A program made the position numbers and the translations under genes. From Terriglobales bacterium (GTDB lineage: Bacteria; Acidobacteriota; Terriglobia; Terriglobales; Acidobacteriaceae), in NCBI GenBank assembly GCA_035764005.1, contig DASTZZ010000065.1:62001-126000 (forward strand): a DNA stretch of 64,000 nt, in the 5' to 3' direction. Below are positions 2,302-33,574 of the stretch, piece after piece (within the stretch, counting starts at the first letter, position 1; every line of letters begins with the position of its first letter). The notes beneath the pieces were generated by a model. That model searched no databases. It worked only from the letters and a program-made list of their open reading frames with translations, and was not told where the DNA came from.

Positions 2302-2362
2302 TCGATCCTCAGATCCGTGGGGCGCGCTCAACTTCACCCAAAGGGCATTCCTTGTTGACACC

Positions 2363-2525
2363 GTCATTCCTCGCGCCGCCGCGATCTGGTGCGAATCTTC
2401 TACGCTTTGGTTTGCGGCGCGGGGAATCCGCTGTCTTCTTCTTCATCCACGATGAACAGCAGATGCCCCGGAGCGCAACCCAAAAGGTGCAGGATCCACC
2501 GTCGTTCCGGCGCTCCGAGGTGACA
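2363..2525. repeat. Long palindromic intergenic repeat, family A, copy 1
   Basis: About 163 bases. The left arm (GTCATTCCTCGCGCCGCCGC) is answered by a diverged right arm ending GGCGCTCCGAGGTGAC. An inner pair (GCGGCGCGGGGAAT and ATGCCCCGGAGCGCA) forms a second stem. It matches the copies at 20860-21022 and 33382-33542 in order, spacing and total length. It lies between converging genes (the hypothetical ending at 2301 and the one ending at 2588). This is the most eroded of the three copies. Confidence 0.8.
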
Positions 2526-2587
2526 GTACCGAAAAGAGGCCTGGTATTTCAAAGAGCGGAGCCGCAGAAAGAGTCTGGTCAGATGGA

Positions 2588-7338: not shown

Positions 7339-7347
7339 AGTTTACAA

Positions 7348-7475
7348 GGCAGTTTCAGGTTTCAGGTTTCGGGTTTCGCGTTTCGGGTTTCGTGTTTCGG
7401 CAAAGCCAGTCCCCAACATCTTCCTTGCTAAGGACTGGCTTTGCCGAAACCTGAAACTCGAAACCTGAAACTGCC
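7348..7475. repeat. Palindromic intergenic repeat, family H, with nested perfect stem
   Basis: The outer arms are GGCAGTTTCAGGTTTC and its inverse GAAACCTGAAACTGCC, with extra GGTTTC/GAAACC units. The inner arms CGGCAAAGCCAGTCC and GGACTGGCTTTGCCG are a perfect 15-base inverted pair (within about 7398-7448). It lies between two minus-strand genes and would form a long double hairpin in RNA or a cruciform in DNA. Confidence 0.85.
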
Positions 7476-7501
7476 TCGTTCGCCTTTCCTTGGTGCGGGC
7501 T

Positions 7502-13223: not shown

Positions 13224-13256
13224 CTTGCATGGCTCTCGGCCGAAAACCAAAGTCAA

Positions 13257-13444
13257 AACCCGACGCGGATTGCGCGGATGCTTCGCCCGCGGATTACGCG
13301 GAAGATTCGAGCGGTAAGAAGTCTGAATTGGATGCCCACCCTCCCTAACCAATTGCGGATTGCCGGTGTTGCTAATTCTTTTGTTTTTCGTTCGCCTTCC
13401 GCGTTGATCCGCGGGCGAAGCATCCGCGCAATCCGCGTCAGGTT
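13257..13444. repeat. Palindromic intergenic repeat, family F
   Basis: The left arm (13257-13304) and right arm (13396-13444) are inverted copies over about 48 bases with roughly three differences. The core is CGGATGCTTCGCCCGCGGAT against ATCCGCGGGCGAAGCATCCG. The unpaired middle is about 90 bases. An eroded half copy occurs at 61350-61396. Confidence 0.9.
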
Positions 13445-13615
13445 TTTGCTGTTGCCTTTCGTCTGCCTCGGCCGATGGCCGAATGCTGATTGCCCAGTGC
13501 CTGTTTCCGAGAGCCGATAGCTGGCGGCAGAGAGCCGGTGTTATGATTTCTGTTTCCCCACATCACCAGGACGGCATCTATATATGTTTCGTCATTACGT
13601 GGGGGATAGCTGAGA

Positions 13616-20231: not shown

Positions 20232-20279
20232 TTGCGTATGAATCGAAGAGTGGCGTCGCGCATCTTATCTGGTTGAGGT

Positions 20280-20405
20280 CAGTACCGTCCGCGGTAGCAG
20301 ACGGGTGAGTGCCCTCTGGCGATGAGTCTCTGACTCGGTGAGGCGTACAAAGAGCCTACACACCCATCCGCTACCGCGGACGGTACTGACGGACGGTACT
20401 GATTC
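20280..20405. repeat. Palindromic intergenic repeat, family E
   Basis: CAGTACCGTCCGCGGTAGC (20280-20298) is perfectly inverted as GCTACCGCGGACGGTACTG (20370-20388), followed by a second GACGGTACTGA. It fills the gatA-msrB gap. The right arm is shared with 6543-6570. Confidence 0.9.
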
Positions 20406-20806: not shown

Positions 20807-21151
20807 TCGCTATCGCTCTGCTTTCGCGGTCCTGCGAACAGCGTACTTGTTAAATGCACTGTCATCCCTCGCGCCGCCGCGAAGAACCGACGGACCATCT
20901 AAAGTCTTTTGCGGCGCGGGGCCTGCTGCTTTGACACGCGCGACCCATACAGCAGATCCCCGCGCCGCAAAAGACAGAGTCTCGAACCACTTGAACAAAT
21001 CGCGGCGGCGCGAGGGATGACAGTACGTAAATCTTTATTCCTGAGCGGGATTTGCGCTTTCCACATTGCAAGTCGCATAACGATACTCCTTCTCTCCCGT
21101 TCTATTCGCGTCCATTCATACACTCAGCGCATCTCATAACTTTCGTCGAAA
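20807..21151 (+). other. 345-base gap before the DHA2 transporter
   Basis: It contains the family A palindrome (20860-21022) and about 130 further bases that must hold the transporter promoter. No regulator palindrome or clear -35/-10 pair stands out. No gene is supported. Confidence 0.5.
20860..21022. repeat. Long palindromic intergenic repeat, family A, copy 2 (best preserved)
   Basis: The outer arms are a perfect 23-base inverted pair at 20860-20882 and 21000-21022, starting TGTCATCCCTCGCGCC and ending GGCGCGAGGGATGACA. A second perfect 17-base inverted pair, TCTTTTGCGGCGCGGGG and CCCCGCGCCGCAAAAGA, lies inside. Total 163 bases, the same as copy 1. Confidence 0.95.
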
Positions 21152-22755: not shown

Positions 22756-22893
22756 TGTCATTCCGAACGCCTGCTTTTGGCGTGAGGAATCCCTACGGAC
22801 TTTCAAAGTGCCCCTCTGGTTCGTATAAGTTCGTAGAGATTCCTCACGCAGGCTCACGCGAACGACACGCGTGAGCCTGCGTTCGGAATGACA
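22756..22893. repeat. Long palindromic intergenic repeat, family B, copy 1
   Basis: TGTCATTCCGAACGC at the left is inverted as GCGTTCGGAATGACA at the right. GTGAGGAATCCCTACG pairs with CGTAGAGATTCCTCAC. The right arm also contains its own hairpin (AGGCTCACGCG / CGCGTGAGCCT). It sits between converging genes. Confidence 0.9.
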
Positions 22894-30697: not shown

Positions 30698-30724
30698 CCA
30701 TGCTTTTCACCACGGAGGGTTTTT

Positions 30725-30921
30725 GTTGTCATTCCGAACCGGCTGTCTTTGCCGGTGAGGAATCCCTATAGATTTCCATCCGCTTACCGGAACCAGATGT
30801 ACGAGTCAGCTTGCTTGCAATCTGGCCGTGGTGTGACTCGGGAGTTCATTGGAGGACCTTCAGGGCAATGGTAGGGATAGGGATTCCTCACCGGCAACTG
30901 CAGCCGGTTCGGAATGACAAC
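30725..30921. repeat. Long palindromic intergenic repeat, family B, copy 2, overlapping the permease start
   Basis: GTTGTCATTCCGAACCGGCT at the left is perfectly inverted at the right end (AGCCGGTTCGGAATGACAAC). The arms extend to about 44 bases with about three differences (CGGTGAGGAATCCCTAT). The ~100-base centre differs from copy 1. The right arm contains the ATG (30868) and the first ~18 codons of the APC permease gene. Confidence 0.92.
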
Positions 30922-32229
30922 ACTTCGCTCGCGCGGCGACTTGGACTGTTCGACGCGACCATGCTGGTAATGGGCGGCATCGTCGGCTCGGGCATCTTTA
31001 TCAATCCGTACGTTGTTGCCCAGCAGGTTCACACGCCAACGTTGATTCTCGGTGCGTGGGTCGTAGGCGGCGTGATTGCGCTTGCCGGCGCCTTCATCTA
31101 TGCCGAATTGGGACAGCGTCTCCCGCAGGTCGGCGGCCAGTACGCCTATCTGCGCGAAGCTTACCATCCGCTGTTCGGATTCCTCTACGGATGGACGCTG
31201 CTGCTGGTTATCCAGACCGGTGGCATGGCGGCGGTGACGGTCACGTTCGCGCGCTACTTTCTGGAACTAACCGGATGGCGCCTGTCCGAGGCCGGAATCG
31301 GAGTTGTTGCGCTTGGAATCCTCACAGTTCTGAATTGCCTTGGCGTGAAGACCGGCAGCACAGTGCAGAGCGCGCTGATGGTGATGAAAATCGCTGCCAT
31401 CGCCTTTCTCGTCGGCTGCGGATTCATGTTTGTGCGGTCAGCGCAGCTCCACTGGGTTCCCATTTCAGACAAGCCGGCATCGCTAAGCCTGTTCTCCGAA
31501 TTCGGAGCCGCAATGGTTCCCGTGCTCTTCGCTTATGGCGGATGGCAGACGACACCCTTCGTCGCCGGCGAACTGCGCGACCCGCGCCGCGACCTTCCTC
31601 GCGGACTTCTGCTCGGCGTGATCGGAGTTATCGCGCTGTACACGAGCGTGAGTCTGGTTTGTCTGCGTGCGCTCGGTCCTGCGCAGTTGGCGCTCACGCG
31701 CACTCCTGCTTCTGCAGTGATGGGAGCTGCGCTGGGCAACGTCGGCAGCACCATCATCGCGTGCGGCATCGCCATCTCCACTTTGGGATTCCTAAGTCAG
31801 GGAATCCTTACCGCTCCGCGGGTCTATTTCGCGATGGCTGAAGACGGAGCCTTCTTCCGCAGCGTGGCTCGCGTTCATCCAACGACGCGGGTGCCAGTCC
31901 TCGCCATCGTGCTGCAGACCGTCTGGACGATGGTCATTATGCTGACCGGCCGCTACGAGCAGATTCTGAACTACGTCGTTTCGATGGACTGGGTGTTCTT
32001 CGGGCTTTCTGCCGGATGTTTGTTCGTCTTTCGCCGTCGCCGAGTCGGCGAAGCTGATTTTCTTATGCCCGGTCATCCCTGGAGTACGGCAATCTTCTGC
32101 ATCGTCTGCGCGCTGGTCGTCGTCAATACAGTTGCGCGTTATCCCTCGAATACACTCATAGGAGTGGCAATTCTGGTCTCCGGAATTCCGCTGTTCTTTT
32201 TATGGCGACACATCAATCTCTCGAAGTGA
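30868..32229 (+). CDS. APC-superfamily amino acid permease
   Basis: About 453 residues with 12 hydrophobic segments. The conserved start RRLGLFDATMLVMGGIVGSGIFINP is the APC TM1 motif (G-x-x-G-SGIF). TM3 region QVGGQYAYLREAYHPLFGFLYGW and TM6 PVLFAYGGWQTTPFVAGE are also typical of L-type amino acid exchangers. The first credible start is ATG 30868, with GGAGG 12 bases upstream; the first 18 residues lie within the right arm of a palindromic repeat. A TTG at 30811 is open but weaker. It overlaps the downstream aminotransferase by 28 bases, suggesting joint uptake and transamination of an amino acid. Confidence 0.9.
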   Translation: MVGIGIPHRQLQPVRNDNTSLARRLGLFDATMLVMGGIVGSGIFINPYVVAQQVHTPTLILGAWVVGGVIALAGAFIYAELGQRLPQVGGQYAYLREAYHPLFGFLYGWTLLLVIQTGGMAAVTVTFARYFLELTGWRLSEAGIGVVALGILTVLNCLGVKTGSTVQSALMVMKIAAIAFLVGCGFMFVRSAQLHWVPISDKPASLSLFSEFGAAMVPVLFAYGGWQTTPFVAGELRDPRRDLPRGLLLGVIGVIALYTSVSLVCLRALGPAQLALTRTPASAVMGAALGNVGSTIIACGIAISTLGFLSQGILTAPRVYFAMAEDGAFFRSVARVHPTTRVPVLAIVLQTVWTMVIMLTGRYEQILNYVVSMDWVFFGLSAGCLFVFRRRRVGEADFLMPGHPWSTAIFCIVCALVVVNTVARYPSNTLIGVAILVSGIPLFFLWRHINLSK

Positions 32230-33323: not shown

Positions 33324-33381
33324 ACATCGCTTCGTCTTATAAATATCGCGCCTCATAGACACTGCCTCCATTCCCAAACAC

Positions 33382-33542
33382 TGTCATCCCTCGCGCAGCC
33401 GCGACGAAGCTTACGCTGAGAGAATTTGCTTTGCTGCGCGGGGGATCTGCTGTCTTTCACTTCGTCAGGAAAAGCAGATCCCCCGGGCCGCACACCAACT
33501 CTTCGAAATGATGCGCGCATGTCGGCGGCCCGAGGGATGACA
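33382..33542. repeat. Long palindromic intergenic repeat, family A, copy 3
   Basis: Starts TGTCATCCCTCGCGC and ends GGCCCGAGGGATGACA; about 161 bases. Inner arms GGGGGATCTGCT and AGCAGATCCCCC are perfectly inverted. It lies between converging genes. Confidence 0.92.
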
Positions 33543-33574
33543 ATATCCAAATAGTGATCTTCACTTAACCCAAC

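Follow-up and report, generated by a model that had tools for sequence, protein, structure and literature searches.

The CGTC REPs comprise the families CGTC-1 to CGTC-4 and are described with stems of 8–9 bp, loops of 4–5 nt and tails that are mostly CCA (PMC3733652). According to the same account, they mostly form head-to-head dimers, often heterodimers, and they locate near gene 3′ ends in convergent or co-directional gaps, with no transposase association. Their preference for unlike dimers "has no obvious explanation", and they "apparently lack a dedicated transposase" (PMC3733652). The part of that paper available to us lists CGTC repeats for five phyla, Acidobacteria not among them, and mentions acidobacterial transposases and no acidobacterial CGTC repeats. 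GTAG REPs and REPINs with RAYT are likewise inverted hairpin pairs between genes, probably moved in trans (PMC3733652), a form and a putative mode of movement that the repeat described here would share. TnpA-Y1 class 3 is described as rare, occurs in Planctomycetes, Acidobacteria and Proteobacteria, and is flanked by atypical secondary structures (PMC6006769).

Here we describe family A, an intergenic repeat of approximately 163 nt found in a window of 64,000 nt (the whole stretch of DNA that was analyzed) from a Terriglobales bacterium that probably lives in soil. As far as the CGTC REPs are described in PMC3733652, family A shares with them the tag (TGTC; CGTC, TGTC or CCTC in the class), a stem that begins A-T, T-A, the head-to-head dimer form and the location, with 65 of 69 copies in convergent or co-directional gaps and no element at 12 Y1_Tnp loci. 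In contrast, its loops span 32–36 nt instead of 4–5 nt, its 8-bp arm stands on top of an ATCCCT/GGGGAT base where the class has a stem of 8–9 bp, and its tail is CTGCTGTT or close to it instead of mostly CCA. Moreover, the class criterion places the tag outside the hairpin, whereas the tag of family A is paired across the dimer in the cloverleaf fold. Because tag, AT start, dimer form and location fit, while loop, tail and stem length do not, we place family A next to the CGTC/TGTC REP class (Di Nocera 2013) as a new variant, outside CGTC-1 to CGTC-4. That it is a TGTC-type REP heterodimer variant we consider likely. Our literature searches found no prior description of family A in Acidobacteria.

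Results

Three copies of family A in the window

We built a covariance model, R1, from 21 copies. R1 matches three places in the window, each on both strands, and finds only these up to E = 10 (Table 1); the three window copies are among the 21, so their scores are not independent. Independent support comes from copy 2, which alone as a nucleotide query matched many further places in the genome. The positions agree with three copies reported in an earlier note on this DNA. That note had described perfect stems of 23 and 17 bases in copy 2. Both inverted arms are indeed 100% complementary, but they measure 25 nt (outer) and 18 nt (inner). These long perfect stems, for which copy 2 had been flagged, exist because its two arms are identical, and copy 2 is the sole one of 58 copies with two identical arms. 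The outer start TGTCATYCC, attributed to every copy, is found at the ends of copies 2 and 3, but copy 1 begins CGTCATTCC and is missing two bases close to the right end. The window contains TGTCATYCC 10 times where 1.2 occurrences are expected, and 0 of 100 shuffles reach 10. Four of the ten are the ends of copies 2 and 3, another four are the ends of two other repeats, and two are left unassigned.

Table 1. Positions of family A copies, the parts of copy 2, and other inverted repeats in the window
Feature	Position	Evidence or remark
Copy 1	2360..2527	R1 112.1 bits; alignment; both ends degenerate (left CGTC; right minus two bases)
Copy 2, whole element including the AC/GT pair outside TGTC...GACA	20858..21024	R1 124.1 bits (+), 114.9 bits (-)
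Copy 2, outer clamp P1, left side (ACTGTCATCCCT)	20858..20869	Paired with 21013-21024; helix 1 of predicted fold
Copy 2, left arm, outer strand (CGCGCCGC)	20870..20877	8/8 Watson-Crick with 20911-20918; loop 33 nt
Copy 2, left arm, inner strand (GCGGCGCG)	20911..20918	Paired with 20870..20877
Copy 2, central stem P3 and loop (GGG..CTGCTG / CAGCAGATCCC)	20919..20960	Helix 3 of predicted fold; imperfect in copy 2
Copy 2, right arm, inner strand (CGCGCCGC)	20961..20968	8/8 Watson-Crick with 21005-21012; loop 36 nt
Copy 2, right arm, outer strand (GCGGCGCG)	21005..21012	Paired with 20961..20968
Copy 2, outer clamp P1, right side (AGGGATGACAGT)	21013..21024	Helix 1 of predicted fold
Copy 3, unlike arms CGCGCAGC and CGGGCCGC	33380..33544	R1 139.4 bits; parsed arms
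Family B repeat (TGTCATTCCGAAC ... GTTCGGAATGACA)	22756..22893	Inverted repeats; side-by-side layout by eye; unmatched by R1
Second family B repeat (TGTTGTCATTCCGAACCGGC ... GCCGGTTCGGAATGACAACA)	30724..30922	Inverted repeat
Short repeats of GGTTTC/GAAACC type	7344..7479	Inverted array
40-nt inverted repeat	13255..13446	98% complementary; arms 112 nt apart; unrelated to the TGTC families
40-nt inverted repeat	20278..20390	85% complementary; between an amidase-type gene (just behind) and the SelR gene; 0.5 kb from copy 2

Anatomy of the element

We parsed 69 copies, 47 from the window's genome (G000) and 22 from a second species (G001). Of the six weak places, five were retrieved and two of these (C95 and C112:31371) parsed into the set; C93, the sixth, and the copy C70:17254 are outside it. 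The distance from TGTC to GACA is 156–170 nt in 66 of the 69 across the two species, which bears out the earlier proposal of a defined unit of near-constant length. No coding capacity was seen in the elements. Over 134 ends, the terminal tag is nearly invariant (T 0.98, G 0.98, T 1.00, C 0.99), and TGTCAT is 97–100% conserved. Outside both ends, bases −6 to −12, read towards the element, are mostly C or T with 3–9% G (134 ends), a bias that may reflect a target preference or may belong to the element itself.

Each half has TGTCATCCCT followed by an 8-nt arm, whose complement stands directly before GGGGAYCTGCTG. Pairing is perfect in 102 of 138 arms, a count in which degenerate arms, such as the right arm of copy 1, score low because the parser keeps the best local solution. 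Among the 1064 arm positions of 133 arms, 1024 are Watson-Crick, 14 are G-T and 26 are other. Loops measure 32–36 nt in 122 of 126 well-paired arms. The identity between loops of equal length is only 36–42% (approximately 25% when shuffled), and the loop ends are partly conserved as CGCGA and TTTT. In 21 copies, the first position of the half-hairpin is A-T in 12 and A-C in 9 for the left half, and A-T in 15 and G-T in 6 for the right half; the second position is T-A in 20 and T-G in one. A half-hairpin has at most 14 pairs, including one weak position, the variable arm alone being 8 bp.

Side-by-side arms in a cloverleaf

We contrasted two folds on one structure-free MAFFT alignment of 21 copies with 500 shuffles; kinship of the copies inflates the covariation scores and the shuffle counts are not probabilities, so that the argument lies in the contrast between the folds on the same alignment. 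Side-by-side pairing (outer-left with inner-left, inner-right with outer-right) scores 0.198, as high as in none of the 500 shuffles, and 14 pairs have changed on both sides. In contrast, nested pairing scores 0.045 against a shuffled mean of 0.068, and 500 of 500 shuffles reach or exceed it. For the full cloverleaf, 94.0% of cells are paired and the score is 0.198. The G001 copies played no part in finding the fold. There, the cloverleaf has 96.2% of cells paired and a score of 0.152 (0/500 shuffles), while the nested fold has 89.4% and 0.043, with 490/500 shuffles at or above it. The nested two-stem architecture described in the earlier note covaries no better than shuffles in either species and is abandoned here. 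The stem-preserving substitutions that the note had set as a test do exist, but they support the side-by-side fold and not the nested one.

RNAalifold, unprompted, proposes the same four-armed cloverleaf for both alignments, in which an outer clamp and a central stem accompany two arms of 8 bp, each with a loop of approximately 34 nt. The outer clamp is near-invariant in the 21-copy alignment. We notice that alignment positions 12 and 165 form a T-A pair in all 21 copies, whereas in two separate half-hairpins position 12 would be in a T-G or C-A pair. The joined cloverleaf is therefore favoured over two free hairpins. Family A is almost certainly one defined family with side-by-side arms.

Although the nested fold was rejected on covariation in two species, constrained RNA energies favour nesting for 41 of the 58 copies and the cloverleaf for the other 17 (median 4.1 kcal/mol in favour of nesting). 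With DNA parameters, the cloverleaf is favoured for 29 of the 58. Modelled energy alone does not choose between the two folds. An in silico replacement of the right arm by a copy of the left makes nesting the better fold for all 58 copies, by a median of 21.9 kcal/mol (RNA parameters); unlike arms therefore remove most of the tendency to form a long hairpin.

Arms are usually unlike

For the arm test, 11 of the 69 copies were dropped for an arm with fewer than 7 Watson-Crick pairs. The remaining 58 copies hold 27 different arm sequences. Identical arms occur in one of the 58, whereas re-pairing all arms would give 6.8 (P = 0.0045). When each pair type is counted once, the figure is 1 of 31 against 2.1 expected; once the copies are clustered by loop similarity, the groups are too few for this test. 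These counts are suggestive of selection for unlike arms in family A. By analogy with the proposal, made for other REPs, that heterodimers may escape SbcCD (PMC3733652), unlike arms may keep the element from folding into a long hairpin, which would be a substrate for SbcCD-type nucleases.

The paired arms also bear on an explanation in which the copies are old neutral repeats, without function or present movement, whose arms are kept paired by replication templating (quasi-palindrome correction). Half-changed arm pairs are nearly absent, as this explanation would predict, and the low loop identity means that the copies are old or fast-changing. However, simple correction does not require the loop length to be held despite this divergence, nor does it require a near-invariant clamp, and we consider neutral persistence quite improbable.

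Copy number and distribution

In the 5.1-Mb genome, R1 at E ≤ 1 gives 103 strand matches at 52 places, a lower bound, as 150 of 1929 first-look candidates were scored. As in the CGTC REPs, the head-to-head dimer prevails: 46 of the 52 places are full-length pairs of at least 79 bits on the better strand, and six are weak or partial (five of these solo or partial), although solo units may be under-counted by a model built from pairs. The neighbourhoods of the 46 strong places are unlike one another. The genome-wide search proposed in the earlier note thus yields further copies, with at least 46 strong places.

At E ≤ 0.01, R1 finds the element in all six genomes of the window's genus. Strand matches number at least 92, at least 92, 9, 61, 22 and 46 in G000 to G005, where the first two figures are lower bounds since 92 candidates were scored per genome. 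In the other genera of the family, 5 of 13 genomes are positive with 3–17 strand matches each, and in the sister family R1 matched 0 of 12 genomes. A pattern scan of a named genome collection, which may omit records of the source genome of the window or of one very close to it, returned 30 stretches. R1 scores exceed 80 bits in four of them, the next best being 31 bits. All four are Acidobacteria/Acidobacteriota records (gp1 AA112 twice, CP_BM_RX_2 twice), which suggests that the window itself is acidobacterial.

A pattern scan of 247 genomes of the phylum gives five with more than 9 matches (63, 21, 17, 17 and 12; reversed control at most 4). In the four high genomes besides G000, many of the listed matches appear by eye to be other TGTCATCCTGAGC-type repeats or chance. 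Four acidobacterial genomes (G206, G222, G064 and G106) carry TGTCATCCTGAGC-type hairpins in which, by eye, the arm seems to hold a further palindrome or repeat, as if growing by nested insertion. We also noticed TGTCATCCCTG...CAGGGATGACA pairs of 155–158 nt, at least five of them, in Candidatus Uabimicrobium amorphum; R1 does not score these as family A. Across the whole window, no Rfam 15 family matched at gathering score.

Location behind genes and comparison of gaps

Genes were called by a custom codon-bias gene caller trained on the window. As the earlier note described, copies 1 and 3 lie between convergent genes, copy 2 lies between co-oriented genes, and none is inside a called gene. 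Copy 1 adjoins a TRCF-type (Mfd) gene; copy 2 lies between a SelR-domain gene (methionine sulfoxide reductase type) and an MFS transporter gene; and the neighbours of copy 3 are an aminotransferase-type gene and a peptidase M28-type gene. The gaps of the 69 copies are convergent in 28 cases, tandem in 37 and divergent in 4. Control gaps, taken from the same loci at 100 bp or more without a family A copy, are 4 convergent, 57 tandem and 23 divergent of 84 (Fisher P = 4e-8 for convergent and 5e-4 for divergent). Called genes overlap 3 of the 69 copies, by 1–63 nt. Family A copies favour gene 3′ ends.

Presence and absence of family A differ between related species, and relatives without the element in comparable gaps were found. 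Comparing occupied with empty sites, another check proposed earlier, gave no clean junction: the gaps of the relatives contain extra genes or other palindromes, and gain and loss could not be told apart. The gap of copy 2 is approximately 2.5 kb wider in G003 and G004, with no family A match. In G001, the gap of copy 3 is without family A, the family B repeat and two intervening genes, and has a 38-nt TGTCATCCTGAGGCC hairpin instead; in G004 and G003 it has still other repeats. In the gap of the first family B repeat in Table 1, both G003 and G004 carry a short palindrome of another kind. We take these comparisons to mean that palindromes of different families replace one another in the same 3′ gaps. 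The palindrome found in the G003 (L166, L160) and G004 (L167) gaps is of the AGAGACGCAGC...GCTGCGTCTCT type. Between G000 and 20 G001 loci, there were a few protein matches, and none was accepted as a shared site.

The location invites an explanation in terms of RNA, in which family A is a selected, strand-symmetric structure at mRNA 3′ ends that, for one neighbouring gene or both, terminates transcription or halts exonucleases, and the compensatory changes reflect selection on RNA. Such an element would account for the 3′-end bias and the arm covariation, and the different palindrome in the same convergent gap of G003 and G004 looks as if some hairpin were wanted there. However, the bias is also expected if insertions elsewhere are purged, and the repeat is patchy among related species. 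RNA helices usually change via G-U intermediates, whereas G-T pairs are rare in the arms. The bidirectional terminator suggested in the earlier note fits the 3′-end location, but a terminator consensus scan around copy 2 gave just one weak 5-pair match, inside the element, and no T-run-type terminator beyond it. On balance, we consider a selected RNA element unlikely.

Flanks and candidate mobilizers

No consistent target-site duplication was found in 67 copies under 72 settings. The largest number of copies sharing a flank duplication is 6 for 2-mers, 3 for 3-mers, 2 for 4-mers and 1 for 5-mers, and there is a small excess over re-paired flanks at a few settings. The earlier note had called the unit MITE-like. 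A conventional MITE would be a deletion derivative of an insertion sequence with a DDE transposase, moved through its terminal inverted repeats. The size of approximately 165 nt, the defined inverted ends, the hairpin-forming sequence, the position adjoining genes and the lack of visible coding capacity resemble a MITE, whereas the missing target duplication and the covarying internal arms are not expected of one, and we hold this origin to be very unlikely.

R1 detected no element in 12 loci of approximately 3.3 kb each around Y1_Tnp genes, and thus none within 1.5 kb of these genes; this and the TGTC tag set family A apart from the GTAG REPs and REPINs. The flanking structures of TnpA-Y1 class 3 offer a lead for family A, by their description and not by sequence (PMC6006769). 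We notice that four Y1_Tnp genes in G000 (L035, L036, L039 and L040) have open frames of equal length, 194 aa, and possibly form an active IS200-like/RAYT-like family. Two of these four have similar sequence around a CTGCTTT match. Family A is probably non-autonomous mobile DNA, and no mobilizer was found at the 12 Y1_Tnp loci.

Two further families with the same end

Family B has the layout TGTCATTCCGAAC-arm-GTGAGGAATCCCTA head to head, with short loops and a long central spacer, and 17 further pattern places were seen in G000. Family C has a longer conserved GTCATCCTGAGGCC-loop-GGCCGAAGGATCTCCCG with an inverted partner approximately 165 nt away, and was placed 65 times in G001, 35 in G003, 10 in G000 and 8 in G004. 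We also considered unlike arms as a general rule and rejected it: many family C copies in G001, G003 and G004 carry the same arm on both sides. The five listed family C copies in G000 are all unlike-armed by eye.

An open scan for pair lengths gave 93, 136, 136, 140 and 191 for family B and 36, 166 and 168 for family C, from few pairs; the pattern searches for both families admitted a limited length range only. Equal length across the families is clear for A and conjectural for B and C. Families A, B and C have a common TGTC-AT end and side-by-side hairpins with different interiors. If a total length near 165 nt were truly common, it could be the ruler of one single-strand-acting nuclease, and the arms would be free to change provided that neither paired with the other instead of with itself. 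We speculate that a dedicated enzyme recognizes the four-armed junction as such, which would be the missing mobilizer system of CGTC-type REPs, although we consider this idea improbable.

Discussion

Our preferred explanation is that family A is a non-autonomous, TGTC REP-like head-to-head pair; with its inferred steps weighed lightly, we give the whole explanation a probability of roughly 0.6. The first half consists of TGTC, ATCCCT with an 8-nt arm, a loop of approximately 34 nt, the complement of that arm, GGGGAT and, as its tail, CTGCTGTT; the second half is built likewise, in inverted orientation. The P1 clamp and the P3 central stem would join the halves into a four-armed cloverleaf, usually with unlike arms, which makes it a heterodimer. 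In single-stranded DNA, the hairpin may be recognized by an enzyme acting in trans, and spread by such a single-strand-acting enzyme seems to us an evenly balanced proposal. The element would thereby be scattered to many sites, and be tolerated or kept just behind stop codons.

We count several points against the REP-like explanation: the loop, tail and stem length, the failure to find a mobilizer or a clean occupied/empty pair, the minority of copies in which RNA energies favour the cloverleaf and the half in which DNA energies do, and the small number of solo or partial copies.

As a variant near the CGTC REPs, family A extends the class to Acidobacteriota. With approximately 50 copies in one genome, arms that have changed many times yet stayed paired and a loop length that has been held, it makes both open questions about the CGTC REPs, the preference for unlike dimers and the means by which they move, testable.
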